Positions 2 through 27,390 of a stretch of DNA of 29,833 nucleotides are shown piece after piece (position 1 is the first letter of the stretch; every line of letters begins with the position of its first letter). The notes beneath the pieces are model-generated. The model was not told where the DNA came from and searched no databases. It saw nothing but the letters and a program-made list of their open reading frames with translations. Made by a program: the position numbers and the translations under genes. The stretch spans positions 1 through 29,833 of the IMG/VR virus record IMGVR_UViG_3300022925_003967, one strand, 5' to 3'. This DNA comes from a virus.

Positions 2-2488
2 GAGTTAGGCATCCCGAAAGGGACATCTAACTTTGACTTGTTGAGAAAGCTATGCTTGAAAGGCGTAAAAGATAGAGGTATTGACTTATTAGATAATAAG
101 CAAAAATACTATGATCGAGTGAAAATGGAGCTTTCTGTTTTAGAGGAGCTTGGTTTTGTTGAATATATATTATTGAATTGGGACGTTCTCAATTATTGTC
201 ACGAAAATGGAATACCCACGGGTCCAGGACGAGGTTCTGCCGCAGGATCTTTGGTACTATACTTATTAAGAGTTACGAATGTTGACTCAATCAAATATGA
301 TCTTTTCTTTGAAAGATTTGTTTCGAAGAGCCGAGCCAAACAAACAATTGTTGATGGTATTACCTATCTTGATGGTTCGCTCCTAGCTGATGTTGATAAT
401 GATATTTCTTATGATCGCCGCCAAGAAGTGATTAAATATATTGAAACAAAACACAAAGGAAGAACTTGTAAAATTTTAACACTAAATACTTTAAGTAGTA
501 AGCTATGCGTTAAAGAGTGCGGTAAAATTGTTGGAGAATTATCTGAAGATGATGTAAATAGTGTTAGCTCTATTATACCTAAACAGTTTGGCAAGGTAGC
601 TAAACTAGATGTAGCCTACGAAGAGAGTGAAAAGTTTAAAGAATTTGCGGATAAAAACGCAAAAGTATACAGAATAGCTAAAAAATTAGAAGGTTTAAAT
701 AAAAATACAGGAGTCCACCCATCTGGTATTGCAATCAGCTTTTATAATGTTGAAGAAATTATGCCTATGCAGAGAACGGGTGATGGCGATCTAATTTCGG
801 CTTATGATATGAATGATGTCGCAGCTTTGATGGTTAAGTTCGATATTTTGGGCTTACGCACTCTTTCGGTTGTGCATGAAACATGCAAACAGCTCGGCAT
901 CAAAATGGAGGATATTGATGTGCAGCTTCCAGAGATTTACGAAAACTTTAAGAATATTGAAGCCCCTAAAGGGTTATTCCAAATCGAAGCTAATACCAAT
1001 TTCAAAGTCTGCAAGAAAGTTTCACCAAGAAATTTAGAAGAACTATCTGCGGTTGTGGCTATTGCTCGTCCTGGTGCGCTTGATTATTTGGATGTATACA
1101 GCGAATACGTTAGCACAGGAGAGTTTCAATCAGTAAACGAATACTTTGATGAGATTCTTTCCTATACTGGAGGTATTCCACTATACCAAGAGCAGCTAAT
1201 GAAGATGGCTGTTAAGGTTGGCTTCACCTTAGATGAGTCTGAGCAGCTGAGACGAATAGTTGGTAAGAAGAAGGTGGAACAAATGTCTAAATGGAAAGAT
1301 AAGATTGCGGCCAAGATTCAGGAAAACAATTTAGATGAACAGGTAGGCGAAGTCTTGTGGAAGGTTGCAGAAGACTCAGCTAATTACTCGTTCAATAAAT
1401 CCCACTCAATTAGTTATGCTATTTTGGCGGCAATCACAACTCACCTTAAATTCAAACACCCACAGGAGTTTTTCTTGAGTTTGTTAAGGATGACAAAACA
1501 TGAACCAGATTCTCATGCTGAAATTTCATTAATTAATCAAGAGCTATGTCTTTTTAATATGAAACTCTTGCCACCTGATTTATCTAAATCCGACATCATG
1601 TTTGAGATCGAGGGTCGCGACATCAGGTTCGGTGTCAACAGCATCAAGGGAGTTTCTGAAAAAACCCTAGAAAGCTTAGTCGAATTTCGTAAGTCTCAAG
1701 ACACCAGTCAGAATAAGTACGACGTATTCCTCACAGCTAAGCAGTCTGGTTTAAATATTGGTGTGCTATCTGGATTAGTCCAAGGGGGAATGATGGATTC
1801 TTTTTGCGACTCAAAGGCGGCCATCCCAAACCGTTGTCGCTTAGTGCTAGAAGCTCAGGCGTTTAATATTCTTACGGATAGAGAAAAGCGTAATTTTGTA
1901 GAATTAGGAAAGAGGTTTGATTACGATGTATTGAAATCCATCCATTCTGTCGTGAAAGACTCCCTAGTAGCCGACGATGGCAAACCGTTAATGAAAGATT
2001 CTAGATTTAACACATTTAAAAAGAAATACGACGGATACAAAAAGATTTACGAAAAGAATAAAGATCACTTAAAGTTTGCGAATTGGTTTTTTGAACGTAA
2101 GTATCTTGGCTATAGCCACTCAACACAGATTAAAGATGTCTTTGAAAATTCTGGTGATCTATGTGATACTATTCAATTAAAGTCTGTCAATAACAACGAC
2201 AGGGTAAAACTGGTAGGGGTTGTAACCGACTGTATCTCCAGAACAAGCGCGGCAGGAAATAAATATATGAGAGTAGAAATACAAGATGACTTTGGTACAA
2301 TTGATTTTATGCTTATGAATAATAGACGCTCTGCCACGTTAGATAATTATTTAAACAATGGAGGCAAAAAACCCAAAGAAGAACAAATTGTGTTTATTTA
2401 TGGCAGCAAAGGGGAAGATATTATATTCGGTGATAGCATTACCATTCTCGATGAAAAAATTTACACAAAACTATCTGAAATTAAATAA
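2..2488 (+). CDS. dnaE: DNA polymerase III alpha subunit, DnaE type (5' end outside window)
   Basis: Replicative C-family polymerase. The frame is open to the left edge, so the PHP domain and true start lie outside; a TTG at 38 is only an internal codon. Residue numbers count from that TTG. The palm begins with GPGRGS at 62-67. The acidic motif ADVDND at 117-122 supplies the first two catalytic Asp (118, 120), and VKFDILGLRTL supplies the third (D269). Fingers motifs follow: YQEQ at 383-386, LRRIVGKKK near 404-412 and FNKSHS at 452-457. A helix-hairpin-helix-like segment lies near 535-550 and an OB-fold at about 720-765. A segment of about 14 residues between SRAK (98-101) and ADVDND looks like a small insertion compared with cellular DnaE. 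The stop overlaps the next ATG as TAATG, suggesting translational coupling. Catalytically intact as far as visible. The identification is from motifs I recognise; no search was run. Confidence 0.95.
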   Translation, partial: ELGIPKGTSNFDLLRKLCLKGVKDRGIDLLDNKQKYYDRVKMELSVLEELGFVEYILLNWDVLNYCHENGIPTGPGRGSAAGSLVLYLLRVTNVDSIKYDLFFERFVSKSRAKQTIVDGITYLDGSLLADVDNDISYDRRQEVIKYIETKHKGRTCKILTLNTLSSKLCVKECGKIVGELSEDDVNSVSSIIPKQFGKVAKLDVAYEESEKFKEFADKNAKVYRIAKKLEGLNKNTGVHPSGIAISFYNVEEIMPMQRTGDGDLISAYDMNDVAALMVKFDILGLRTLSVVHETCKQLGIKMEDIDVQLPEIYENFKNIEAPKGLFQIEANTNFKVCKKVSPRNLEELSAVVAIARPGALDYLDVYSEYVSTGEFQSVNEYFDEILSYTGGIPLYQEQLMKMAVKVGFTLDESEQLRRIVGKKKVEQMSKWKDKIAAKIQENNLDEQVGEVLWKVAEDSANYSFNKSHSISYAILAAITTHLKFKHPQEFFLSLLRMTKHEPDSHAEISLINQELCLFNMKLLPPDLSKSDIMFEIEGRDIRFGVNSIKGVSEKTLESLVEFRKSQDTSQNKYDVFLTAKQSGLNIGVLSGLVQGGMMDSFCDSKAAIPNRCRLVLEAQAFNILTDREKRNFVELGKRFDYDVLKSIHSVVKDSLVADDGKPLMKDSRFNTFKKKYDGYKKIYEKNKDHLKFANWFFERKYLGYSHSTQIKDVFENSGDLCDTIQLKSVNNNDRVKLVGVVTDCISRTSAAGNKYMRVEIQDDFGTIDFMLMNNRRSATLDNYLNNGGKKPKEEQIVFIYGSKGEDIIFGDSITILDEKIYTKLSEIK

Positions 2489-3984
2489 TGGATTTATCTA
2501 AATTCAACTTCACACCCTCGGCTCAAAAAGCAATTGAAGACTCAATATCTATAGCGGAAGAGTTTGGGCATCTCAAAGTTATTGATTTGCATCTTTTGTT
2601 ATCTATACTTAGGTTGGATCATAATAGTATAGATTTTGCTATAACGTCTAATAACCTAATTAAGGACGGGATTATCCAAGGTATAGAATACGCTGTAGAA
2701 AATTACAAAGAACCCAAAAGAAAGAAAAAAATATATGCACCAGAGATATTAGAAATTTTAAACAACTCTCAAAAATTAGCATCTAGGCTCAAAGATGAGT
2801 TTATTGGTATAGACCATATCTTAGTTTCTATACTTAGCACAAGAGAAGAAGTCGCTGATTTTTTAATTCACTTAAACATAGATTTAACTAAATTAATTAA
2901 TGACTTAAAAAAAATAATAAAAGATGGCATACCCAAAGAAAAAGTTCCATTAAGTATTGGTTCAAATACAACTCAACAAGAAATCACTTCATCTGAAATG
3001 GATGGGTGGTGCGAAAATCTAAATGAAAAAATAGCCCAAAAAGGAGAGTTTGAAATTTTTGGAAGAGATGCTGAGATTGAAAGAATTTTTGAAATATTAT
3101 TACGTAAAAACAAAAGCAATGTTATATTAGTTGGAGAAGCTGGAGTTGGAAAAACTGCTATTGTAGAAGGCATGGCTGAAAAAATCCTAAAAAGAGAATG
3201 TCCAGATCTTTTGCTACATAAAAATATACTTTCGTTAGACTTAACCTCTGTAATGTCTGGAACTATTTATAGGGGACAGATGGAAGAAAAACTTAAAAAA
3301 ATATTAGAACATATATCAACAGAAGATCATTATATTTTGTTTATTGATGAAATACACACCATAGTTGGGGCTGGCAGTTCAGAAGGTAGTCTAGATTTTG
3401 CCAACATACTTAAGCCAGCCCTATCTAGAGGCAATATATCATGCATTGGTGCTACAACCAAAGATGAGTATGATCGGTTTTTCAAAAAAGATTCTGCATT
3501 AAGCCGTAGGTTTGAATTAATTAATGTCAACGAACCAACCAAAGAAGAAACTTTTGAGCTTCTGAAGGTGGCTAAGAAATCTTATGAAAAATTTCATCAA
3601 GTAGAATATAGCGAAGAGTTGTTGGCAAAAATTGTAGAGCTTTGTGATATTTATTTAAGTAATAAAAAATTTCCAGATAAAGCTTTTGACATTATAGACG
3701 AATCTGGAGCTAGAACAAAAAAAGTAAACATGGTTCGTCCCCAGAAAGCAAAAGACATGGAGGACAAACTTATAGATATAGATTTCCAAAAAAGCGCCGA
3801 CTATGGTAAATTTCATAATAAATATGTAAAAATCTTAGAAAAATGGGGAGAAAGTTTGAAAAATAAAAGTTTTAATGTTGACATGGATACAATTTATGAT
3901 ATATTTGCTCTTAAGTTAAACACCTCTAAAGAAAACATAAAGGAAAACAAAAACGTGCCATCTTCTGGCAGAATAGGTTTTTAA
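2488..3984 (+). CDS. Single-ring ClpA/B/C-like AAA+ ATPase with Clp N-domain
   Basis: 498 aa. Two Clp-N-like helical repeats occupy about 1-150, with a linker to about 185. One AAA+ module follows: Walker A GEAGVGKT at 216-223, a pore-loop segment SGTIYRGQMEE at 258-267 (compare the YRGE/F loop of Clp D1 rings), Walker B ILFIDEIH at 283-290, sensor-1 GATT at 321-324, and an SRRFE arginine-finger segment at 339-343. Cellular ClpA/B/C carry a second AAA+ ring (D2) and exceed 750 aa; here the chain stops after D1 and about 60 further residues. No IGF/L-type ClpP-docking loop was recognised, so this is more likely a remodelling or unfolding ATPase than a complete ClpP partner. The start codon overlaps the polymerase stop (TAATG), tying it to replication expression. 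Its substrate is unknown. Confidence 0.9.
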   Translation: MDLSKFNFTPSAQKAIEDSISIAEEFGHLKVIDLHLLLSILRLDHNSIDFAITSNNLIKDGIIQGIEYAVENYKEPKRKKKIYAPEILEILNNSQKLASRLKDEFIGIDHILVSILSTREEVADFLIHLNIDLTKLINDLKKIIKDGIPKEKVPLSIGSNTTQQEITSSEMDGWCENLNEKIAQKGEFEIFGRDAEIERIFEILLRKNKSNVILVGEAGVGKTAIVEGMAEKILKRECPDLLLHKNILSLDLTSVMSGTIYRGQMEEKLKKILEHISTEDHYILFIDEIHTIVGAGSSEGSLDFANILKPALSRGNISCIGATTKDEYDRFFKKDSALSRRFELINVNEPTKEETFELLKVAKKSYEKFHQVEYSEELLAKIVELCDIYLSNKKFPDKAFDIIDESGARTKKVNMVRPQKAKDMEDKLIDIDFQKSADYGKFHNKYVKILEKWGESLKNKSFNVDMDTIYDIFALKLNTSKENIKENKNVPSSGRIGF

Positions 3985-4005: not shown

Positions 4006-4215
4006 ATGAATAAGACAAACCGTATTGTAAAAGCAATTAGCGCTAGTGGTGGCCGTTTTTTCGGCCTCACTACTCAACAAGGTGAAACACTCAACGCACA
4101 ATTTGTGCGCGAGACTCCCAATTATGTGGTAGTTCGAGATCGAAACGCTAAGGAGATTCGAAAGTTTGCCAAGACGAGCCTTAAAACGCTCTCAATGGGT
4201 AAGACTAAGATCTAA
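4006..4215 (+). CDS. Small basic protein of unknown function
   Basis: 69 aa, rich in Lys/Arg and Thr. The middle segment (about 15-50) alternates hydrophobic and polar residues in short strands, with the shape of a small SH3-like or other beta-barrel nucleic-acid-binding fold; this is inference from pattern only. It lies 21 nt after the Clp-like gene and is followed at once by a strong terminator, so it probably ends the replication operon. No good Shine-Dalgarno is present: the 15 nt upstream are almost all A/T. Its higher GC content and well-formed codons compared with flanking genes support real coding. No family recognised with certainty. Confidence 0.75.
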   Translation: MNKTNRIVKAISASGGRFFGLTTQQGETLNAQFVRETPNYVVVRDRNAKEIRKFAKTSLKTLSMGKTKI

Positions 4216-4220
4216 ATCAA

Positions 4221-4245
4221 AAGGCGGTAGAAATACCGCCTTTTT
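4221..4245 (+). terminator. Rho-independent terminator
   Basis: Perfect 9-bp stem (aaggcggta / taccgcctt) closed by a GAAA tetraloop and followed by a run of T. It starts 5 nt after the stop of the 69-aa gene and probably ends the polymerase-Clp-small-protein unit. Flanking A and T residues could lengthen the stem. Confidence 0.95.
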
Positions 4246-4263: not shown

Positions 4264-5427
4264 ATGGAAAAGCAAGCTGGGTTTAAAAATTGTGTTTTTG
4301 TGGATTCTAATCCAAAGAATATAGACGAAAATGCGTCTGAATTTGAAAAAACTTTAATACTTCAGTATATTAGCGACCTCAAAAAGAGTGATCCAAGTAG
4401 ATTTAAACTTAAATTCTTAGGATTAAAAACTGAAATTAAAGTAGTAAACAGTAATTTTTTTTACAACAGCTATTCAATAACTTACGATATTGAAAAATAC
4501 TTATTAAAAATAAGCTTAGACCCAGGACACAAAAGATTAGAAACAGAAAAACAAGCACTAGAGTCAGTTAACTCCTTGGTTTGTCCAGAGATTATAGACT
4601 ATACACTAGATAAAAAGAATGATATAGAGTTTCTTCTTACCTCTTGGGAAAACGGAGAGAACTTTGAAAATTTAGGAATAGATGATTTTATTTATAATTT
4701 AGGTACATTTTCTGCTGTTTTAGATACAATTCACGAAAGCGATACAAAAAATATAGCATCGTTCGAAAGCAAGTTTGAAGAAAACGAATCTATCTCACTT
4801 ATTGAAGAAAAATTAACCCAAAAAGAATTAGATCTTTTCGAAAGCCTCTCGGGATTGAGGTTCAACAAACTCAATGATTTGTTTTTATTGATTAGGGAAA
4901 AATTCTTAATTAAATATAAAGAAGATATTCCTGTTCTGTGCCACTCTAACTTAAAATTTTCTAATATACTTTATCAATCCGAATATATCAAAGTTATAAA
5001 TTTTGAAAACAGTCATGTTTCGGATATCTATTATAGTTTGTTGAAAGTAATTAATAACACCCAACTTTATTATAGCGATAAAAAAGTTTATCAATTTTTA
5101 TGCAAATATCACGAAAACTCCAGAATACTGGGAGATTTAGACCTCGAAACTTTTATTCAAAATTTTGAATCAAAGAAAGAATTAAATAGAATGCTTCTCC
5201 TTCAGGATCTTGTTTGTAAGACAGTTTTTCATTTTTTCTCTTACGGAGCTTTTTCCAAGAAAAAACTATTAAGTCATTACCTCTATCTTTATTTAAACAT
5301 AAAACCAACTGTTGAAAAATTCCTGCCAGAATATATAGAATTTTTTGATAAGTTATTCTTTACCGCTACTGATTCTTTGAAAACTTACGATATCGATAAT
5401 ATTAATTTAATTCACAGGCAACCATAG
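4264..5427 (+). CDS. Aminoglycoside-phosphotransferase-fold protein, probable pseudokinase
   Basis: 387 aa. The layout resembles the APH/choline-kinase family: an N-lobe with the segment YLLKISLD (79-86, candidate ATP-anchoring Lys82), a hinge near TSWENGENF (126-134), then a Brenner-type loop HSNLKFSN at 227-234 and a metal-binding-loop equivalent INFEN at 245-249. In active members these read HxDxxxxN and I-D-F/W-E; here both Asp positions are Asn (N229, N246), while the loop Asn (N234) and the surrounding context are retained. Either the protein is catalytically dead and binds a ligand or partner, or it uses unusual chemistry. It stands between a terminator and a promoter, apparently monocistronic, just before DNA-binding and glycosyltransferase genes. 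The fold call is moderate because it rests on two motifs plus overall layout. Confidence 0.65.
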   Translation: MEKQAGFKNCVFVDSNPKNIDENASEFEKTLILQYISDLKKSDPSRFKLKFLGLKTEIKVVNSNFFYNSYSITYDIEKYLLKISLDPGHKRLETEKQALESVNSLVCPEIIDYTLDKKNDIEFLLTSWENGENFENLGIDDFIYNLGTFSAVLDTIHESDTKNIASFESKFEENESISLIEEKLTQKELDLFESLSGLRFNKLNDLFLLIREKFLIKYKEDIPVLCHSNLKFSNILYQSEYIKVINFENSHVSDIYYSLLKVINNTQLYYSDKKVYQFLCKYHENSRILGDLDLETFIQNFESKKELNRMLLLQDLVCKTVFHFFSYGAFSKKKLLSHYLYLYLNIKPTVEKFLPEYIEFFDKLFFTATDSLKTYDIDNINLIHRQP

Positions 5428-5491: not shown

Positions 5492-5953
5492 ATGAAACAA
5501 CACGATATTTACAAACCGAATTCTTTTAATACGGGATGTGCGTTCTCCTTTAAAATTATAGAACAAGATAAAGAGGGAAACAAAGCAAAACCATCCCTTC
5601 TTGTACAATCCATTAAACAAGCATCATGGAACGAAAAAACAAGGAACGGATCTTTCAGTGCTAATGCAAAGAATCCAGAAAAAAATATTTACTTTAAGTT
5701 AAACGAAAACGAAGTTGGTGCAATGTTATATGCTATTGAAAATTATACAGAGTTTTCAGCTTTCCACACTTACAATGACGACAAAACTATAATCTCGTTC
5801 AAACCTTATACAAAGAAAGACGGCAAAAAAGCTTTCTCCTTTAGTGTTGTCAAAAACTCTACACTAAAATTTGGAATGGGAATAGAGCTTGGTGAGGCCA
5901 GAACACTCAAAGCATTGTTTGATTTGTTCTTGTTTAAATTGTTTAATTACTAA
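5492..5953 (+). CDS. Putative ssDNA-binding protein, PC4/Whirly-like
   Basis: 153 aa. A strand-rich core (about 18-125) holds a segment rich in Ser/Ala/Asn (GSFSANAKN near 53-61), then YFKLNENEVGAMLYAIENY (67-85), and the strand FSAFHTYNDDKTIISFKPY. This succession of strands followed by a helix with alternating basic and aromatic residues resembles PC4/Whirly-type single-stranded DNA binders. A C-terminal helix with several Phe and Leu could be a dimer or partner contact. It has its own promoter and apparently a leaderless start, and its stop overlaps the next ATG (TAATG). Position near a polymerase and a putative annealing protein fits an ssDNA role, but the family call is by pattern and remains tentative. 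Confidence 0.5.
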   Translation: MKQHDIYKPNSFNTGCAFSFKIIEQDKEGNKAKPSLLVQSIKQASWNEKTRNGSFSANAKNPEKNIYFKLNENEVGAMLYAIENYTEFSAFHTYNDDKTIISFKPYTKKDGKKAFSFSVVKNSTLKFGMGIELGEARTLKALFDLFLFKLFNY

Positions 5954-7641
5954 TGAAGAAGATTCTTTTTCACTCTAATTCCGCAAAAGCGTTTACTGGT
6001 TTTGGTAAAAACTCAAAAAACATTCTTCGCTATCTTCAAAAGACTGGAAAGTATGAAATTATTGAGTTTGCTAATGGATTAAAATGGGGGGATAAATCAT
6101 TAAGTTTGAGACCCTGGAAGGCTCAAGGGTCTTTGCCTAATAACCCAAAACTACTCCAAGAATTAAATAAAGACCCCAAAAGGGGTCGTGCTGCTAGCTA
6201 TGGCGCAGAAACAATCGATTCTGCCATTAAAGAATATAAACCAGATATTTATCTTGGTGTCGAAGATGTCTGGGCATTTGCTGGTTATTGGGACAAGCCT
6301 TGGTGGAAAAAAATAAATAGTATTATTTGGACTACATTAGATAGCCAACCTATCCTGCCACAAGCCTTAGAGTGTGCCGAAAAAACAAAACACTTTTATT
6401 CTTGGGCCTCTTTTGCAGAAAAAGACCTTAAAAAAATGGGACACGACCATGTAGGCACTCTTCATGGATCGGTCGAAACTAAGGATTTTTTTAAACATAG
6501 CAAGAATCGCAAAGAGGAATTGAGAAATAAATTTGGTTTGTCTGACAATTTTGTTATTGGGTTTGTTTTTCGCAACCAACTCAGAAAGAGTGTGCCTAAT
6601 TTATTAGAAGGATTTAAAAGATTCAAAAAGGACTGCCCAAAAGCCAAATTACTCCTTCATACGCACTGGTCAGAAGGTTGGGATATCCCAAGGTTAATTG
6701 AAGAGAAGGAAATAAATAAAAAAGATGTTTTAACTACATATTGCTGCAAACATTGTAGCGAATACGATGTTAAAGAATTTGTGGGCCAAGAGCAGGATTG
6801 TCGTTTTTGTAAAACAAAAAAATCAACTAACACAACAAATGTTTCTGTTGGGGTAAACGAAGAACAGTTAAATGATATTTACAACATAATGGACGTCTAT
6901 TGCCATCCGTTTACTAGCGGAGGTATGGAAATACCTATATTTGAAGCTAAAATGACAGAGCTTATTACGCTCGTCACTAATTACTCGTGCGGAGAAGATT
7001 CCTCTTCTCGGGAGTGTGGTAGCTTTCCTTTGGATTGGTCTGAATATAGAGAACCTGGGACCCAGTTCATTAAAGCCTCAACTCACCCAACTAGTATAGC
7101 AAAACAACTCAAAAAGGTTTGGCAAATGGGCCCTGAAAAACGAATAGACTTAGGTAAAAAAGGTAGAGAATGGACAATTAAAAATTATTCCACAGAATCT
7201 ATTGGTAAAAAACTAGAAGTTATTTTAGACTCTATGCCAGAAATTGATTACAACTTTGACTTTGACGAAGACAAAAAGCAAGGGGCGAGCTTAATAGATT
7301 TACTCAATGATGGTAACCGTATTGCTGTAGTTATCCCCCAAGACATTGGAGATGTTTTGTGGGTTAATTCTTTAATGAGTAATCTCAAAAAACTTTATAA
7401 CTCTCACGATATTTATGTTTTCACCAAACCTGAGTTTTTCTCCTATATAGAAGACAACCCATCGATTCATAAAGTTTTAACCTATTCTAAGGAAATTGAT
7501 AACATCTATTTTTTAGAAGGAAAAGGCGAACACAAAGGTTTTTTCGACATGGCTTTTTTCCCTCACCACGGAACCCAGGTTCTTTCAGATTATAGTCATA
7601 ATGGCAAAGACAAAAATCAGTTTGAATTATATGAAAATTAA
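5953..7641 (+). CDS. Glycosyltransferase: GT4-like domain, zinc-ribbon insertion and N-terminal half of a GT9 domain
   Basis: 562 aa. Residues 1-430 look like a GT-B, GT4-type transferase: an N-terminal Rossmann strand (KKILFHSN) and a glycine loop FTGFGKNS at 14-21, then a second domain (VIGFVFRNQLRKSVPNLLEG from 201) ending in a donor-binding segment GGMEIPIFEAK at 323-333. An insertion at about 262-290 carries two CxxC pairs (C265/C268, C283/C286), a likely zinc ribbon. Residues 455-540 start a second transferase, the N-terminal half of a heptosyltransferase-like GT9 domain (IAVVIPQDIGDVLW at 457-470), which stops at FELYEN. The missing GT9 half is at the start of the next ORF. Likely role: sugar transfer to host surface, virion protein or DNA base; the acceptor cannot be read from sequence. 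Start shares TAATG with the upstream stop. Confidence 0.85.
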   Translation: MKKILFHSNSAKAFTGFGKNSKNILRYLQKTGKYEIIEFANGLKWGDKSLSLRPWKAQGSLPNNPKLLQELNKDPKRGRAASYGAETIDSAIKEYKPDIYLGVEDVWAFAGYWDKPWWKKINSIIWTTLDSQPILPQALECAEKTKHFYSWASFAEKDLKKMGHDHVGTLHGSVETKDFFKHSKNRKEELRNKFGLSDNFVIGFVFRNQLRKSVPNLLEGFKRFKKDCPKAKLLLHTHWSEGWDIPRLIEEKEINKKDVLTTYCCKHCSEYDVKEFVGQEQDCRFCKTKKSTNTTNVSVGVNEEQLNDIYNIMDVYCHPFTSGGMEIPIFEAKMTELITLVTNYSCGEDSSSRECGSFPLDWSEYREPGTQFIKASTHPTSIAKQLKKVWQMGPEKRIDLGKKGREWTIKNYSTESIGKKLEVILDSMPEIDYNFDFDEDKKQGASLIDLLNDGNRIAVVIPQDIGDVLWVNSLMSNLKKLYNSHDIYVFTKPEFFSYIEDNPSIHKVLTYSKEIDNIYFLEGKGEHKGFFDMAFFPHHGTQVLSDYSHNGKDKNQFELYEN

Positions 7642-17134: not shown

Positions 17135-18058
17135 TTAAACTAAATTAACATTTACATTTGTATTTCCACCAACTGTAATACCAGTTGCATTCGACCAGCC
17201 CGAAGTTCCAGTTGGTACATTTATAGTAAGAAGTGGCGCTGTGTTCGAGAAAACATCATTGACTACATCTATAACTGATTTAGGTATAGAGAGGTTAACA
17301 GTCGCTAAGTTAGAGCAGCCCAGGAATGCGCCAGTCCCGATGCTGGTGACGCCGTTGCCGATGGTCGCGCTCGTCAGGCTAGTGCAGCCTTCGAATGATA
17401 GTTGACCGATCTCGGTGATACTATTAGGTATGTTAATATTCGTCAGGCTTCTGCAGAAAGCAAATGTGTTTGTTCCGATAAAGTCAACATATGGACCGAT
17501 GTTGACGCTCGTTATGCCAGCGCAGGAATAGAATAAATCAAATTGACTTAGACCCAGTATTCTTCCTAAGCTCTGTACTGAAACTATGTTCGTATTCTCA
17601 CCAAAACCACCTTGCACAGCTCCTATTCTGATCTTCGGAACTGAAGGCCCCTTTATTTTTGCTTGATATGTTCCAGCAGAAGCGTAAGTGTGGAAAAAAG
17701 TTGTATATTGCGTTCCAGATAGTAGTTCGAAATTTCCATCACCCCATTCAATCACCCCTTCATAAAATAGATTATTATCCAGCGCCACCCCAATCACTGG
17801 GTCAATCGAAGCATTTACAGTAAATACTACGTCCGCGAGCAGGAAGTCACCACACCCACCATACAAAACTTTACTATTTTGATCTGTTAAACCCAAAATT
17901 GGTCCTTCACAAATTAAGTCTAAAGCCTCGTAAATTTGGAAACCAATTTTACTGAAAGTTCCATCGGGCGGCATTAAGTAAGATGGTATGGGCGAACCAC
18001 CGCTACCAGCCCCGCCAACACGTATTTTTTTCTTGAAAAGCCTATTATAAAAAGACAT
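17135..18058 (-). CDS. gpJ N-terminal fragment fused to PKD-like and BspA-type LRR domains
   Basis: 307 aa. Residues 1-65 are the gpJ N-terminus: a Gly-rich lead (VGGAGSGGSPIP), then PPDGTFSKIGF (30-40) and ALDLICEGPILGLTDQ (45-60), the motif that docks gpJ to the tail tube end. At about residue 66 gpJ similarity stops. A PKD-like domain follows (IEWGDGNFELL at 103-113 and HTYASAGTYQAKI at 123-135), then BspA-type LRRs (about 165-255) and a C-cap (LTINVPTGTSGW, then GGNTNVNVNLV) also present in two fibre-like genes on the other strand. The start shares TAATG with the gpI-like stop. Intact gpJ would continue into the region that here begins the 2010-aa protein, so the J gene appears split, the LRR part being cargo. 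The LRR DNA is about 60% GC in 17341-17400 against 15% in 17101-17160. Confidence 0.8.
   Translation of the reverse strand: MSFYNRLFKKKIRVGGAGSGGSPIPSYLMPPDGTFSKIGFQIYEALDLICEGPILGLTDQNSKVLYGGCGDFLLADVVFTVNASIDPVIGVALDNNLFYEGVIEWGDGNFELLSGTQYTTFFHTYASAGTYQAKIKGPSVPKIRIGAVQGGFGENTNIVSVQSLGRILGLSQFDLFYSCAGITSVNIGPYVDFIGTNTFAFCRSLTNINIPNSITEIGQLSFEGCTSLTSATIGNGVTSIGTGAFLGCSNLATVNLSIPKSVIDVVNDVFSNTAPLLTINVPTGTSGWSNATGITVGGNTNVNVNLV
17290..17580 (-). repeat. LRR-coding repeat block, minus-strand copy
   Basis: About four units of a roughly 69-bp (23-residue) BspA-type LRR with consensus IGxxAFxGCxxLTSxxIPxSVTS. The reverse complement of 17341-17400 shares runs of 21-22 identical bases with the plus-strand LRR genes (near 22374 and 23806), making it an inverted repeat relative to them. 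Confidence 0.8.
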
Positions 18059-20555: not shown

Positions 20556-21179
20556 ATGAGACAATTAAAACTAGGAAAAAATAAAAAAGTAAATTTTATA
20601 AGGATACCCAAAAATGCTAGCACTTCACTGTATAATTTTTTTGGTGTTACTAATACAATTAGAGACGATTATTTGACTTGTCCAGAAAGTGTTTATAAAA
20701 ATATTTTTGCGCCATCTCACTGCACATTTGACACAGCAATTGATTGTTTGGGCAATGAAATATTAAATCTTCCGACACTCGCTGTTGCTAGAAATCCTTA
20801 TGACAGAGCTGTTTCTTTTTATCATTTTTCCAAAAAATACTCTATTTTTTCTATTTATAACAAACCAGAATTAAGCTTTGTAGACTTCTTAGAAGAATTT
20901 TCAAACCAAAACGATGATTTTTTTCACGCTTGGCCACAAATGAAATTTTTTAAAAATCACCAAGTTGATGTGATTAAATTCGAAAATATTGAAGCAGATT
21001 TGTGGAATTTTCTCAAAAAAAATAATATAGATGTTTTTTATAAAAACGCTAAAAGGCAACTCAAAAAAGAAAACCAAACTATACACGAAAATTATAAAAA
21101 ATATTACTGCTCTAGATCCAAGAAAATAGTGAAAGAAATGTGGGGTGAAGATATTTCTTTTTTTTCTTACAAATTTTAA
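20556..21179 (+). CDS. Sulfotransferase family 2
   Basis: 207 aa. PAPS-dependent transfer of sulfate to a carbohydrate or similar hydroxyl group. The 5'-phosphosulfate loop is IPKNASTS at 17-24 (compare IPKTGGTS), and the 3'-phosphate site is ARNPYDRAVSFYH at 78-90, including the conserved Arg and Ser. Length and motif order fit bacterial and Golgi-type carbohydrate sulfotransferases of the Sulfotransfer_2 group. No signal peptide or membrane segment, so it should act in the cytoplasm. It follows a putative acyltransferase by 1 nt and precedes the fibre-like genes by 30 nt. GC is low (14 of 60 in 20581-20640 by hand count). The acceptor is unknown: host polysaccharide precursors and phage fibres are both possible. 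Confidence 0.85.
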   Translation: MRQLKLGKNKKVNFIRIPKNASTSLYNFFGVTNTIRDDYLTCPESVYKNIFAPSHCTFDTAIDCLGNEILNLPTLAVARNPYDRAVSFYHFSKKYSIFSIYNKPELSFVDFLEEFSNQNDDFFHAWPQMKFFKNHQVDVIKFENIEADLWNFLKKNNIDVFYKNAKRQLKKENQTIHENYKKYYCSRSKKIVKEMWGEDISFFSYKF

Positions 21180-21209: not shown

Positions 21210-21902
21210 ATGGCAGATAAAAAAACATCAGAAATTACGGAATTAATTTCAACTGACGCAGCAGCTGACCTCTTACCTGTTGTAGATACCAGCGAAGATG
21301 AGACCAAAAAGATTAGATTTAGTAATTTGCCACTGAGTGATTCGGCTAAAAACTCTGTGTATACGTATACTACAGACTTTCATGGCCCCACAGCAGAAAC
21401 ACGGAACATTACTGCTCCGTTGACTTACAATCAGTATTACGGCGATGATACTACTTTAACTAGTATCTATATTGGGAGCAATGTTCCCAGCATTGGGTTA
21501 TCCGCATTCATTCGTTGCGATGCCCTGAGGGATGTAACCATCGCTAACGGTATCACAAGTATCGGTCAAAATGCATTTCGGCTCTGCTCCGCTATCCAAA
21601 GTATCAATATTCCAGACAGCGTTACCAGCATCGGGCTTAGCGCACTTCAAAACTGCGATGCCCTGAACAGCTTAACCATTCCCAGCAGTGTGACTAGTAT
21701 TGGGGATAACGCTTTTCGTAATTGCGTTAACTTAGCGACAATTAACTGCAATGTAGATTTTTCTATTATAAATGACCTAGATAATGTTTTCACTAACACA
21801 CAGTCCCCTCTTACTATAAACGTACCAGCTGGACTTGGTTGGACAGATGCTGATGGCCAAACAATTGGCGGAAACACAAACGTGAACGTTAACATAATAT
21901 AA
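21210..21902 (+). CDS. Fibre-like protein 1: shared N-terminal module plus BspA-type LRRs
   Basis: 230 aa. Residues 1-62 form an N-terminal module (KTSEITELIST, LLPVVDTSEDETKKIRFSNL) of the kind that opens many phage tail-fibre proteins; it recurs in the next two genes. LRRs of the BspA type run from about 80 to 180 (for example ITSIGQNAFRLC, then SINIPDSVTSIG). A C-cap (SPLTINVPAGLGW, then GGNTNVNVNII) closes the chain and matches the cap of fibre 2 and of the minus-strand J-LRR gene. Probable role: receptor-binding or adhesion protein at the virion surface. No Shine-Dalgarno is near the ATG. The TGTAAT-N7-ATG upstream could be a weak member of the leaderless promoter set. Confidence 0.75.
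   Translation: MADKKTSEITELISTDAAADLLPVVDTSEDETKKIRFSNLPLSDSAKNSVYTYTTDFHGPTAETRNITAPLTYNQYYGDDTTLTSIYIGSNVPSIGLSAFIRCDALRDVTIANGITSIGQNAFRLCSAIQSINIPDSVTSIGLSALQNCDALNSLTIPSSVTSIGDNAFRNCVNLATINCNVDFSIINDLDNVFTNTQSPLTINVPAGLGWTDADGQTIGGNTNVNVNII
21450..21745 (+). repeat. LRR-coding repeat block in fibre 1
   Basis: About four to five 69-bp units encoding the 23-residue BspA-type LRR. More diverged than in fibre 3, and closer in base composition to the surrounding DNA. Confidence 0.75.
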
Positions 21903-21914
21903 AGTAAACCCACA

Positions 21915-22979
21915 ATGGCAAACAAAAAAATATCAGAACTCACAGAAATAACTTCAGCAGACTCGGCAGTAGATTTTTTACCAGTTGTAGACTCCAGCGA
22001 AAGTAAAACTAAAAAAATTAAATTAGCCAACTTTCCGCTCAGTGATGCCTCTAAAGATACCGCATACTCATACACGATAGATATTCAGAATGGCGTAGAG
22101 CAAACTCGGAATCTTGCAACTATTAGTAATTCAGATGGGTTCTACAATACAAATCAACCAGATAGTATTTATATTGGGACTAATGTAACCAGCATTGGAT
22201 TTGCGGCGTTTAGCAATAGTAATTTTGCAGGGGATAATTTAGCAAATCAGAGCGTCACGATTCCCGACAGCGTCACCACCATCGGAAGTTTTGCGTTTTA
22301 TTATTCTGCGCTAACGAGTGTCAGGCTTCCAAATAATCCTGCGTTTACCTCGATTGAGAGAGATACATTTGGTGGCTGCACTAGCCTGACGAGCGTCACC
22401 ATTCCAAACAGCGTCACCAGCATCGGGAGTAGCGCATTCCGTGGCTGCACTGGCCTGACGAGCGTCACCATTCCAGACAGTGTCATCAGCATCGGGAATT
22501 TCGCATTCGAGGGCTGCACTGGCCTGACCAGCATCACCATCCCCGACAGTGTTTCCACCATCGGACAAAGAGCATTTCAAGGCTGCGACAGTGCAGAAAG
22601 TCTCACCCTCCCAAATAACGCTAGCTTTACTACTATTGAGCAATTCACATTTGCTGAATTTAGGGCTTTACTGAGTTTGACCATACCCAATACAGTAACG
22701 ACTATCGGTTCATACGCATTCCGCAATCTTGATGTTTTGACAACTGTTGAAATTCCTAGTAGTGTCGCCAACATAGGAGAGAGAGCCTTTCAGGGTTGTA
22801 ATCTACTAAATACAATAAACTGCAATGTAAATAAAAGTATTATAGACAACGCAATTAATATTTTCCTCGGCACGGCATCTCCTCTTACTATTAATGTTCC
22901 AGTTGGCACTTCTGGTTGGGTAGCTGGTTCTGGCCTGAATATTGGTGGAAACGCAAACGTAACCGTTAATATAATTTAA
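21915..22979 (+). CDS. Fibre-like protein 2: shared N-terminal module plus BspA-type LRRs
   Basis: 354 aa. The N-terminal module (KKISELTEITSADSA, FLPVVDSSESKTKKIKLANF) is paralogous to those of its neighbours. LRRs fill about 80-300, with very regular units such as TGLTSVTIPDSVISIGNFAF and inserts of the LPNNPAFTSIERDTF type, which lengthen single repeats. The C-cap (ASPLTINVPVGTSGW, then GGNANVTVNII) is the same type as in fibre 1 and the J-LRR gene. Likely an alternative or co-displayed receptor-binding protein. It starts 12 nt after fibre 1 with no Shine-Dalgarno, so translation may depend on reinitiation. Confidence 0.75.
   Translation: MANKKISELTEITSADSAVDFLPVVDSSESKTKKIKLANFPLSDASKDTAYSYTIDIQNGVEQTRNLATISNSDGFYNTNQPDSIYIGTNVTSIGFAAFSNSNFAGDNLANQSVTIPDSVTTIGSFAFYYSALTSVRLPNNPAFTSIERDTFGGCTSLTSVTIPNSVTSIGSSAFRGCTGLTSVTIPDSVISIGNFAFEGCTGLTSITIPDSVSTIGQRAFQGCDSAESLTLPNNASFTTIEQFTFAEFRALLSLTIPNTVTTIGSYAFRNLDVLTTVEIPSSVANIGERAFQGCNLLNTINCNVNKSIIDNAINIFLGTASPLTINVPVGTSGWVAGSGLNIGGNANVTVNII
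22155..22815 (+). repeat. LRR-coding repeat block in fibre 2
   Basis: About nine 69-bp units. The three between about 22375 and 22590 are nearly identical to each other (gcctgacgagcgtcacc and ggctgcactggcctgac cores), pointing to recent unit duplication or homogenisation. Confidence 0.8.
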
Positions 22980-22991
22980 TCTTCAAAAATC

Positions 22992-25900
22992 ATGGCAGAC
23001 AAAAAAATATCACAACTAACAGAATTAACTTCAGCTGATCCAGTAATCGATGTGCTACCACTAGTAGACAGCGATTTAAATCAGACCAAAAAGATTAAGT
23101 TGGCAGATCTTCCTCTGAGTGATGCAGAAAAGGGATCTATTGTGCCATTCACTACGGATACTCAGGCTGGCGTGGAGCAAACTAGAAATCTTACAACTAT
23201 TACTAATTTAGATGGTTATGATGGTAACACGACATTAAATAGCGTCTACATTGGAAGTAATGTCACCAGCATCGGGGACTACGCATTCTATGGCTGCACT
23301 GGCCTGACGAGCATCATCATCCCCGACAGCGTTACCAGTATTGGGAGTTATGCATTCTATGACTGCACTAACATGGAGAGCGTCATCATTCCCGACAGCG
23401 TTACCAGTATTGGGAGTTATGCATTCGGAAATTCTACGCTAACAAGTGTTGAAATCCCCAAGAACGCCCTTATTCAGCCCTACTCATTCGCCAAAATGGC
23501 AACGCTAGAAAGCGTTAATATAGCCGACGGCTTCACCAGAATCGAGGATTACGCATTCCAGTTCGACACTAGCCTGACGAGCATCAACATCGGCCCCGAC
23601 GTCTACTACATCGGGAATTTTGCATTCTCTGGCTGCACTGGCCTGACGAGTATCGTTCTTCCCGAAGCCCCGTTCTCCCAGATCGGGATTGGCGCATTCT
23701 TTGGGTGTACTAGATTAGAGAGCGTCAACATTCCCGAAACTGTCAAACGCATCAGAGATAATACATTCTTTGGCTGCAGCAACCTGACGAGCATCATCAT
23801 TCCCGACGGCGTCACCAGCATCGGGAATGGCGCATTCTCGGGCTGCACCAGCCTGACGAGCATCATCATTCCCGACGGCGTCGAAACCATCGGAGATGGC
23901 GCATTCCGTTTTTGCTCTGGCCCGACAAGCATCAACATCCCAGACGGCGTCACCAGAATCGAGAATAGCACATTCGCTAACTGCAGCAATCTAACGAGCG
24001 CCATCATTCCCAACAGCGTCGAAATAATGGGGCTTAGTGTTTTTCTAGAATGCACTAGCCTGACGAGCGTCACCCTCCCAAATAATGTTAATTTTACCAG
24101 CATCAGGGATAGCGCATTCCGTGGCTGCAGCAGCCTGACCAGCGTCACCATTCCAGATAGCGTCACCAGCATCGAGGATCGCGTATTCAAGGACTGCACC
24201 AGCCTATCTACAATCAACTGCCTAGCTACAACTGCTCCTATCTTGGGTTCTGATGTGTTTTTGGGTGTAGCGGCTACAGAAATTCAGGTTCCAGTTGGAG
24301 CAATCGCATCATACGCTGCTGCGGGCGACGGCGTCACATACGGTGGATTAACCATTGTCGAAGCATCTTTGACTTTTTCTTTAATTGATAATAAGTACAG
24401 TGTTGAGAGTTGCGATGTAGAAACTAGCGGACCGTTAGTAATTCCTAGCACCTACCAAGGTCTATCTGTCGTCGGCATCAAGAATTACGCATTCTTTGGC
24501 TGCAGCAATCTTACGAGCGTCACCATTCCCGACAGCGTCGAAACTATCGGGGATTTTGTATTCGGTAACTGTACCAGCCTGACGAACGTCAACATGGGCA
24601 ACGGTGTCACTAGCATTGGTGATTCCATGTTTAATGGCTGCACGAACTTAGAAAATGTCACGCTTCCAATCAATAACGACTTTACCTCCATTCCAGAATT
24701 CGCATTTTTCTCTCTCGCTAAACTAGCCAGCATCACCATCCCCGACAGCGTCACCAGCATCGGTCAATTCGCATTTCAGAACTGCACGGGCTTGTTGAGT
24801 GTCACCCTCGGCAACAATGTCGCCATCATTGATCGCGGCTCGTTCCAAAATTGCGGCCTGACGAGCGTCATCATTCCCGACAGCGTCACCAGCATCGGGC
24901 TTCAGGCATTTCAAGATTGCATCGGTCTAGAAAGTGCCACCCTACCGAACAATGCTGGCTTCAACCAAGTCGTCGTTAACTTATTCTATAACTGCACTAG
25001 CTTGTCGAACATTATCATTCCCGACAGCGTTATCAGCATCGCGGGTTCCGCATTCGGTAACTGCACCGACCTGACGAGCGCCACACTTCCTAGTAGCGCG
25101 ACTTACATCGATGTTTTCGCATTCAGTGGCTGCGCTAGCCTAACCAGCTTTGTGGTTGCTGTCGACAATCCAAATTACAGTTCGACAGGACCACTGTTGC
25201 TCAACAAGAATGGCACTGAGTTGATTGCTGGCCCAGGTGCTAGCGGTGACTTCACTATTCCAAACGGCATCACCACCATTGCGGTGAATTCATTCTATAG
25301 CAATAAAGTCCTGACGAGCGTAACCTTTCCTGACAGCGTCACCACCGTCGGGGCTAACGCATTCTATAGGTCCAGCTTCTTAACGTCCATAATTTTTGAA
25401 TCGATGTCTGCCCCTACAATTGTGAGGGGTGCATTCAGCCGAATATCAAGCTATGCAACTATTCAGTATCCGAACGGAGCAACAGGATATGCGGCTTCCT
25501 ATGACGGCGTACCGACTGAGGAAGCGGATGCGACTGCGGAGTCTTTATACACTTATTCGGTCAACCCCGACAACGTATCGGTGACGATTACCGACTATCC
25601 CGAAACCGCAGATGGCGAGCTTCAGATTTTAGATACTATTTATGGGTACAGCGTCACCAGCATCGGGTCTCTAGCATTCTCGAACTGCACTAGCCTGTCG
25701 AGCATTATCATCCCCGACAGCGTCGAAACTATCGGGGATTTCGCATTCAATCAATGCACTGGCCTGACGAACGTCAACATGGGTAATGGTGTCACTAGCA
25801 TTGGTAGTTCCATATTTGGTGGCTGCACGAACTTAGAAAATGTCACGCTTCCAATCAATAACGACTTTACCTCTATCCCGCAATACACATTTTCATCTCT

Positions 25901-26555
25901 CGCTAACCTGACCAGCATCACCGTTCCTGATAATGTTAGTATCATCGGGGATGCCGCATTCAATGGATGCAGTGGCCTGACAAGCGTCACACTTCCAAAT
26001 AATAACAATTTCACCAGTATCGAGTTTGGTACATTCGGTGACTGCACTATCCTAGCGAGTATCATCATTCCAAACAGCGTCACCAGCATCGGGGATGGCG
26101 CATTCGGTGGCTGCACTGGCCTGTCGAGCGTCACACTTCCAAATAATGTTAACTTCACCAGCATCGGGTTAGGCGTATTCCAAGACTGCGCTAGCTTGTC
26201 GAGCATCACCATTCCCGACAGCGTCACCAGCATCGAGGATGGCGCATTTAATGGCTGCATTGGCCTGATCAGCATTACTATCGGTAACAGCGTCTCCACC
26301 ATTGGGACTGGCGCATTCCAAAACTGCACTGACCTGACGAGCGTCGTTCTCCCCAATAGCGTCACCAATATCGAAAATGCTGCATTCTTTAATTGTTCAA
26401 ATCTAACAAACCTAGACTGTTACGCTGTTTCAGCTCCATCCTTGGGTGGTAGCTTCGTATTTTTTGGCTCGGGCTTAACTAGTATTCACGTCCCAGTAGG
26501 AGCAACAGGATACGGAACTACATATGGAGGTTTGACGGTCGTCTCCGATTTATAG
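22992..26555 (+). CDS. Fibre-like protein 3: giant three-module BspA-type LRR protein
   Basis: 1187 aa. The shared N-terminal module (KKISQLTELTSADPV, VLPLVDSDLNQTKKIKLADL) is followed by three LRR arrays. Array 1 runs to about residue 408 and ends in a cap with IQVPVGAIASYAAAG; array 2 starts after a strand-rich N-cap (FSLIDNKYSVES) and runs to about 805, including a DNPNYSSTGPLLLNKNG segment typical of BspA proteins, and ends with YPNGATGYAASYDG; array 3 starts after another N-cap and ends with IHVPVGATGYGTTYGG. The final cap is of a different type from fibres 1 and 2. No signal peptide, membrane anchor or catalytic motif. BspA-type LRRs elsewhere bind host proteins and glycans; here receptor binding is inferred. 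GC reaches 38 of 60 in 23821-23880. The stop TAG overlaps no other gene, and a promoter follows at once. Confidence 0.78.
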   Translation: MADKKISQLTELTSADPVIDVLPLVDSDLNQTKKIKLADLPLSDAEKGSIVPFTTDTQAGVEQTRNLTTITNLDGYDGNTTLNSVYIGSNVTSIGDYAFYGCTGLTSIIIPDSVTSIGSYAFYDCTNMESVIIPDSVTSIGSYAFGNSTLTSVEIPKNALIQPYSFAKMATLESVNIADGFTRIEDYAFQFDTSLTSINIGPDVYYIGNFAFSGCTGLTSIVLPEAPFSQIGIGAFFGCTRLESVNIPETVKRIRDNTFFGCSNLTSIIIPDGVTSIGNGAFSGCTSLTSIIIPDGVETIGDGAFRFCSGPTSINIPDGVTRIENSTFANCSNLTSAIIPNSVEIMGLSVFLECTSLTSVTLPNNVNFTSIRDSAFRGCSSLTSVTIPDSVTSIEDRVFKDCTSLSTINCLATTAPILGSDVFLGVAATEIQVPVGAIASYAAAGDGVTYGGLTIVEASLTFSLIDNKYSVESCDVETSGPLVIPSTYQGLSVVGIKNYAFFGCSNLTSVTIPDSVETIGDFVFGNCTSLTNVNMGNGVTSIGDSMFNGCTNLENVTLPINNDFTSIPEFAFFSLAKLASITIPDSVTSIGQFAFQNCTGLLSVTLGNNVAIIDRGSFQNCGLTSVIIPDSVTSIGLQAFQDCIGLESATLPNNAGFNQVVVNLFYNCTSLSNIIIPDSVISIAGSAFGNCTDLTSATLPSSATYIDVFAFSGCASLTSFVVAVDNPNYSSTGPLLLNKNGTELIAGPGASGDFTIPNGITTIAVNSFYSNKVLTSVTFPDSVTTVGANAFYRSSFLTSIIFESMSAPTIVRGAFSRISSYATIQYPNGATGYAASYDGVPTEEADATAESLYTYSVNPDNVSVTITDYPETADGELQILDTIYGYSVTSIGSLAFSNCTSLSSIIIPDSVETIGDFAFNQCTGLTNVNMGNGVTSIGSSIFGGCTNLENVTLPINNDFTSIPQYTFSSLANLTSITVPDNVSIIGDAAFNGCSGLTSVTLPNNNNFTSIEFGTFGDCTILASIIIPNSVTSIGDGAFGGCTGLSSVTLPNNVNFTSIGLGVFQDCASLSSITIPDSVTSIEDGAFNGCIGLISITIGNSVSTIGTGAFQNCTDLTSVVLPNSVTNIENAAFFNCSNLTNLDCYAVSAPSLGGSFVFFGSGLTSIHVPVGATGYGTTYGGLTVVSDL
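24501..24760 (+). repeat. Direct duplication, copy 1 (partner 25686-25945)
   Basis: This segment and 25686-25945 align without gaps at an offset of 1185 bp (395 codons). They share the non-LRR signature segments encoding NVNMGNGVTSIG and LENVTLPINNDFTSIP. Differences concentrate in variable LRR positions. It suggests that array 3 arose from array 2, or that the two exchange sequence. Confidence 0.75.
25686..25945 (+). repeat. Direct duplication, copy 2 (partner 24501-24760)
   Basis: Second copy of the 260-bp direct repeat, in array 3 of the same gene. The run encoding NLENVTLPINNDFTSIP is almost unchanged, while the unit before it differs at several codons. Confidence 0.75.
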
Positions 26556-26589: not shown

Positions 26590-27390
26590 ATGAGTAAAAA
26601 ATTACATTTCGTATCTGGTCTTCCACGAGCTTGCTCCACACTGCTCTGTAATTTACTTGCGCAGAACCCAAGAGTTCACGCTACGCCTACTAGTGCCTTG
26701 CACGAAATCGGGTATATAGCTCGCCAAGTCTTTCAGACTGAAGAGGCAAAGGCAGTGGATATGGAAAAAGTTCTTGAGCCTATGTATTTGGATTACGTTA
26801 AGGCTGGATGTGAGAACGCATTTAATAGTATCACAGACCGCCCAGTAGTTGTAGATAAATGTCGCTCTTGGATTGGTCACCTAGATCAACTTTTTAAGGT
26901 GTGGCCAGACGCAAAAGTTCTTGTCCCAGTCCGCGATGTACGCGGCATTTTTTCTAGTATGGAAAAGAAACGACAGCAGCATCCAGAAGTTTTTAACGGA
27001 GCGGAGCAACAGAACCCACAAAGCTGGACAACTATCGATAAACGTGTTCAAGGTTGGCTACAAAGCCCCCCAATTGGTATTGCAATCGAGAGATTACATG
27101 AAGCTGCCGAAAGATTTGGTGATAAATTAATGTTTGTTCATGCTGAAGACTTAACAGAAGACCCACAAAGTGTAATGAATAATGTATGGGAGTTTCTTGG
27201 AGAAGAGCCTTTCGTTCACAACACTTCCAACGTAGAACAATACACCAAAGAAAATGATGTAGGTTTCCCATATGGGGATCATGTTATTCGCCAAGAAGTA
27301 AAACCACTAAAAAAAGATTGGCACGAAACACTTGGCCGCCAACTCTCAGAACAACTTAACCAAAAATTTAACTGGATCAACGAATTATGA
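26590..27390 (+). CDS. Sulfotransferase (PAPS-dependent), second type
   Basis: 266 aa. The 5'-phosphosulfate loop is SGLPRACSTLL at 9-19, and the 3'-phosphate segment is VPVRDVRGIFSSME at 112-125 with Arg115 and Ser122/123. The chain layout (early P-loop-like motif, helix-rich middle, ED-T/S segment HAEDLTEDPQSVM near 185-197, C-terminal region NDVGFPYGDHVIRQE) fits the Sulfotransfer_1/3 group, unlike the type-2 enzyme at 20556. Such genes are known in marine phage genomes, but their acceptors are not established. It has its own promoter, and its stop overlaps the next gene by 4 nt (ATGA). Higher GC than the type-2 enzyme suggests a separate origin. Probably cytoplasmic. Confidence 0.85.
   Translation: MSKKLHFVSGLPRACSTLLCNLLAQNPRVHATPTSALHEIGYIARQVFQTEEAKAVDMEKVLEPMYLDYVKAGCENAFNSITDRPVVVDKCRSWIGHLDQLFKVWPDAKVLVPVRDVRGIFSSMEKKRQQHPEVFNGAEQQNPQSWTTIDKRVQGWLQSPPIGIAIERLHEAAERFGDKLMFVHAEDLTEDPQSVMNNVWEFLGEEPFVHNTSNVEQYTKENDVGFPYGDHVIRQEVKPLKKDWHETLGRQLSEQLNQKFNWINEL

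Follow-up and report, generated by a model that had tools for sequence, protein, structure and literature searches.

The window, meaning the whole stretch of DNA analyzed here, is a 29.8-kb virus fragment from IMG/VR (29,833 nucleotides) that carries lambda-type tail genes. Its genes lie in the order DNA polymerase III alpha, a Clp-type AAA+ gene, a 69-amino-acid (69-aa) open reading frame (ORF), a pseudokinase with the fold of choline/aminoglycoside kinases (CAKs), a 153-aa gene, a group 1 glycosyltransferase (GT), (DUF6165), a GT9-like gene, "rad" (a label only), GNAT, and tail genes. The pseudokinase ORF occupies positions 4264 to 5427 on the + strand and is open from ATG through stop, with 387 codons (387 aa); its assignment draws on the reading frame, homologues, an AlphaFold2 (AF2) model, and a fold search. 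The conserved upstream neighbor, the Clp-type gene (2488 to 3984, + strand), is of the protein-unfolding ATPase type, encodes 498 aa with one AAA+ module, and ends in GRIGF. Between the two lies the 69-aa ORF (4006 to 4215, + strand), which is basic, was recovered from 18 of 22 loci, is 41 to 88% identical across those 18 relatives, and has no PHROG match. Just upstream of the pseudokinase start, a perfect hairpin (GGCGGTA-GAAA-TACCGCC) is followed by five T residues (4219 to 4244, + strand) in a terminator-like arrangement, and thus the pseudokinase of the window may be transcribed apart from Clp. Downstream, the conserved 153-aa gene (5492 to 5953, + strand) carries the label ssb; it has no profile match, and our guess is that it encodes a PC4/whirly-like single-stranded DNA-binding protein. 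The group 1 GT gene (5953 to 7641, + strand) is the next cluster neighbor.

Several further features of the window and its relatives were observed. Several proteins encoded at 17135 to 18058 and 21210 to 26555 contain BspA-type leucine-rich repeats, as seen by eye in the translations; one of them has a tail-gene-like N terminus, and the number of repeat proteins is unusual for a phage. Two sulfotransferase-family genes are located at 20556 to 21179 and 26590 to 27390 (Sulfotransfer_1/_2 and Sulfotransfer_3). Shine-Dalgarno-like sequences are missing upstream of most window genes, a weak hint that the host may not rely on them. Moreover, the nearest relative (L001, 428 to 4216) has a DNA polymerase III alpha that is about 400 aa longer than that of other relatives and that contains an intein-like insert, which starts with CVTGDTRF and ends with VVANGMIIHN before a C.

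CAKs carry HxD and IDxE motifs at the sites that read HSNLKFSN and INFE in the window protein. The catalytic-loop motif HSNLKFSN (residues 227 to 234; 4942 to 4965, + strand) has N229 (AAC) in place of the catalytic Asp, and the metal-site motif INFE (residues 245 to 248; 4996 to 5007, + strand) has N246 (AAT) in place of the metal-binding Asp, such that neither Asp expected of an active CAK is present. To pair residues, the family profile was aligned with HMMER to APH(3')-IIIa (1j7i) and LicA (4r77) and numbers were counted off the alignment; the alignments that fixed the register had E values of 2e-5 for LicA and 0.0015 for APH(3')-IIIa. By this pairing, N229, N234, and N246 correspond to D190, N195, and D208 of APH(3')-IIIa, and the CHID...IDWE of LicA pairs with CHgN...INFE of the phage family. 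That the Asp pair is near universal in active CAKs is taken from published work and from the alignments to these two PDB entries rather than from a count made here. The original prediction, that both motifs lie in an intact ORF and that both catalytic aspartates are lost, was thus confirmed from the sequence in its first part and borne out by profile alignment in its second. The nearest relative, which is 62% identical and comes from another metagenome, has HSNLKFSN and INFE unchanged, and therefore N229 and N246 reflect neither chance nor sequencing error.

Single-sequence searches scarcely placed the window protein. The best that profiles returned was an E value of 0.036 for Pfam Pkinase, 4.7e-6 for NCBIfam GntI, and 1e-3 for ThiK, with scores far below the profile cutoffs (26.1 versus 357 for GntI and 18.2 versus 299 for ThiK). 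A phmmer search of the PDB gave no useful match, and Pfam APH (PF01636) gave no match in the window protein and hence no score at its curated cutoff. AF2 run with 50 homologues, however, gave a full two-lobed CAK fold (pLDDT, 89.3; pTM, 0.89); a poor model made from 5 sequences (pLDDT, 61) was left out. The top structural neighbors of the model were choline kinases (Z 20.8 over 312 residues at 10% identity), and aminoglycoside phosphotransferases were also among the best. Choline/ethanolamine kinases, represented by human ChoK alpha and Streptococcus pneumoniae LicA (Z 19.7), have the overall fold in common with the phage family at Z 19.7 to 20.8, but the family differs in having both Asp residues replaced, in its 10 to 14% identity, and in lying beside Clp and replication genes. 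The best Foldseek matches were APH(3')-Ia (E 8e-11), APH(3')-IIIa, and APH(2''), which share the residue-level alignment, whereas the phage family has lost their catalytic Asp pair and matches Pfam APH weakly, in no more than 13 of 50 members. In addition to two lobes, the window protein and its family have a VAIK-type lysine, K82 (4507 to 4509, + strand), and a helix-C glutamate, E95 (4546 to 4548, + strand). We conclude that the protein has the APH/choline-kinase fold, as had been proposed from its sequence.

Close relatives were collected by a direct scan, which gave the one at 62% identity, and then by scans with the neighboring glycosyltransferase and an early profile. Fifteen contigs carry close orthologues in a shared gene order, and the 15 distinct close sequences include that of the window, to which the relatives are 45 to 62% identical. 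N246 is invariant in this clade; at residue 229, 14 sequences have N and one has D, the latter being an identical protein in two contigs. A query of residues 60 to 178, which holds neither motif, recovered the same 15 contigs, and the Asn pattern of the close clade is therefore not a search artifact.

To extend the family, IMG/VR was scanned with a profile built from the 153-aa gene downstream, which found 397 relatives, with 80 loci kept, and an iterated HMM search of the ORFs of those loci, with later additions, gave 56 distinct homologues from uncultured phages, all with intact frames and with identities down to about 15%. Wider members were found mostly by the ssb-based scan followed by the HMM search, every match having an E value of <1e-40; the exceptions L028, L029, L136, and L137 were retrieved by motif-containing patterns. 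Bias from INFE-containing patterns was considered and ruled out, on the motif-free query for the close clade and the ssb-based scan for most wider members. Across the 56 homologues, K82 is present in all 56, S84 in 54, E95 in 53, the loop His H227 in 52, and N234 in 41. Position 229 is N in 34, S in 6, K in 5, D in 5, A in 3, R in 2, and G in 1, and position 246 is N in 39, D in 6, H in 4, C in 3, K in 2, S in 1, and G in 1. No homologue has Asp at both positions, and Asn at both is seen most often (29/56) without being the rule. When sequences are weighted for redundancy (44 effective sequences at 80% identity), Asp accounts for 11% at each site and the Asn pair for 55%. One subclade has an Asp shifted one position earlier, at 245, and counting it still yields no member with two Asp residues. 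A quick tree, made after the motif columns had been removed, requires no fewer than 5 switches between Asp and other residues at 229 and no fewer than 3 at 246; its deep branches are long, and it does not settle the ancestral state. Thus, the expected conservation of Asn held for N246 in the close clade, but the Asn pair is too narrow a definition for a family in which both positions vary and are never both Asp.

If the aspartates had been lost by degeneration, the gene might be a functionless, decaying ex-kinase, as the missing catalytic residues and the lack of a detected copy in some related phage contigs would allow. In the close clade, however, AAT and AAC both occur at each Asn site, and dN/dS was 0.07 to 0.19 in ten pairs, where dS approaches saturation as pairs become more distant and the close pairs (0.07 to 0.14) weigh most. 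The synonymous variation at both sites and these ratios indicate that selection acts on the protein. Decay was therefore highly implausible and was rejected, given dN/dS well below 1 and the intact frames and synteny conserved across the family. We conclude that purifying selection rather than random decay maintains the gene, as originally supposed.

A selected protein could still be an enzyme, either an atypical CAK that phosphorylates or one that AMPylates like the pseudokinase-like SelO, with Asn and backbone groups, or else a moved acid, holding metal and substrate. Retention of the pocket lysine, helix-C Glu, loop His, and N234 is consistent with such activity, as are an HxD that is intact in five members and a loop around the lost Asp that is among the best-conserved parts of the protein in the close clade. 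Moreover, kinase activity does not in every case depend on the metal-site (DxD) motif (PMC2860764). Because 5 of 56 members keep the HxD Asp and 6 of 56 have Asp at 246, weak or altered activity is possible in some members. Nevertheless, unrelated residues (K, R, H, S, A, and G) fill the key positions in related members that share gene order, which fits relaxed catalytic constraint, and no substitute acid near the catalytic loop is conserved family-wide. There, E248 reaches 55%; the acids that are well conserved (D86, position 68, and E129) sit in the N-lobe or hinge. Active-site acids supplied from elsewhere, which would have spoken against the original prediction, were thus not found as a conserved replacement near the loop, and an enzymatic role for the family seems rather unlikely.

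CAK-fold pseudokinases are already known among the bacterial spore kinases (BSKs), and the phage family is a further variant. In the BSKs (YutH, YsxE, CotS, and YtaA), which have the CAK fold, loss of the same Asp has occurred repeatedly, and five that lost the D166(PKA) equivalent are predicted pseudokinases (PMC2860764); as in the phage family, a noncatalytic role is presumed. BSKs differ in host and context, being cellular proteins of the spore coat in Gram-positive spore formers, and no sampled phage member keeps both Asp residues. The CotS family profile did not match the window protein and matched 2 of 50 relatives weakly (best E, 5.7e-5), which gives no ground for BSK membership. By the criterion used for spore kinases, a kinase fold that lacks the D166(PKA)-equivalent Asp along with further catalytic motifs (PMC2860764), the pseudokinase status of the phage protein is well supported.

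One noncatalytic role would be to bind a small molecule, such as a sugar, nucleotide sugar, or choline-like group, in unphosphorylated form for glycosyltransferases that modify glycans or DNA. The nearest folds are small-molecule binders, and the cluster includes group 1 GT and GT9-like genes. Among the CAK-fold spore kinases, moreover, there are members that have links to glycosyltransferases and whose ligands may be pseudosubstrates (PMC2860764). Some related phage contigs, however, have the GT genes with no detected pseudokinase, and the tight neighbor of the pseudokinase is Clp rather than GT, so that we consider this role unlikely.

The cluster of polymerase, Clp, pseudokinase, ssb, and GT genes is kept across relatives, and 25 of 34 long records contain exactly one copy of the pseudokinase. 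Among + strand genes of 150 aa or more, it comes directly after Clp in 41 of 44 contigs, a set that includes some near-duplicates. In L028, L050, L066, and L069, it lies behind "rad" instead, and L059 retains a truncated Clp with no pseudokinase copy detected. The Clp genes themselves come in two forms. All listed copies of the short single-module form of the window's clade, including those of the window, L059, and L060, end in IGF, the letters of the ClpP-docking loop, and this end is possibly a relocated ClpP-docking tail or a ClpP blocker. Complete Clp genes of wider relatives encode 769 to 838 aa with two AAA+ modules and have other C termini.

Flanking by the polymerase and Clp genes and the ssb-labeled gene could also mean that the protein regulates phage DNA replication, in a role comparable to that of the CAK-fold cell-cycle regulator CcrZ. 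The NCBIfam CcrZ profile did not match the window protein and matched 5 of 50 relatives weakly (best E, 7e-6), so membership is not indicated. CcrZ, GntI, and ThiK are CAK-type kinases with weak profile likeness throughout (best E, 1e-6 to 7e-6), and CcrZ matched no more strongly than ThiK, APH(3'), or GntI, a signal of the superfamily and not of a role. We regard a CcrZ-like function as quite improbable. The suggestion that a phage pseudokinase might act on host antibiotic resistance or metabolism found no support in anything observed; the genomic context is a Clp-type ATPase, DNA polymerase III alpha, an ssb-labeled gene, and glycosyltransferases.

We conclude, with a probability of about 0.62, that the gene encodes a CAK-fold pseudokinase of an unnamed family in a large group of uncultured tailed phages, kept for binding, perhaps as a partner of Clp or replication proteins. 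This reading draws on the fold, the paired Asp loss throughout the sample, retention of Lys-Glu and the loop His, purifying selection, and a near-fixed place behind Clp. Of the binding or decoy role first suggested, binding is made probable by fold, Asp loss, and selection, and nothing found speaks for a decoy. The pseudokinase would transfer no phosphate; its retained K82/E95 pocket would still hold a ligand, most likely a nucleotide, and ligand occupancy would shape a protein-binding surface. From gene order, the partner may be the phage Clp-type ATPase, for which the pseudokinase would be an adaptor or regulator that delivers or protects proteins, or perhaps another product of the replication cluster. 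Jumbo phages have been reported to encode the Clp adaptor ClpS (PMC7824862), and this precedent together with the 41/44 adjacency is circumstantial reason to favor a Clp adaptor or regulator. The Clp role is weakened by the four members that follow "rad," by L059, and by the hairpin that separates the pseudokinase from Clp in the window. A more specific version, in which a nucleotide-sensing adaptor pairs with the single-module, IGF-ending phage Clp to redirect or block host ClpP proteolysis, is doubtful.

The family lies outside current collections. PHROGs has no family model for the pseudokinase, which likewise falls under no PADLOC or Pfam family, and PADLOC returned one weak homing-endonuclease match only. 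Searches with tblastn of the INPHARED cultured phages gave no match for the window pseudokinase, a divergent pseudokinase, or the ssb gene, and two pattern scans of GTDB genome contigs, of limited sensitivity, gave no cellular relative. No phage CAK pseudokinase was found in the open-access literature; subscription papers could differ. Work on pseudokinases has been mostly in eukaryotes, and the CAK-fold pseudokinases that we found described are bacterial spore-coat proteins, whereas the family described here is carried by phages and has dozens of distinct members. The catalytic pair is complete in no sampled member, and the Lys-Glu pair of the putative nucleotide pocket is nearly invariant. 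The family thus offers a natural set of active-site variants for asking what a kinase fold does without phosphate transfer, and the adjacent Clp-type ATPase is a concrete, testable candidate partner.
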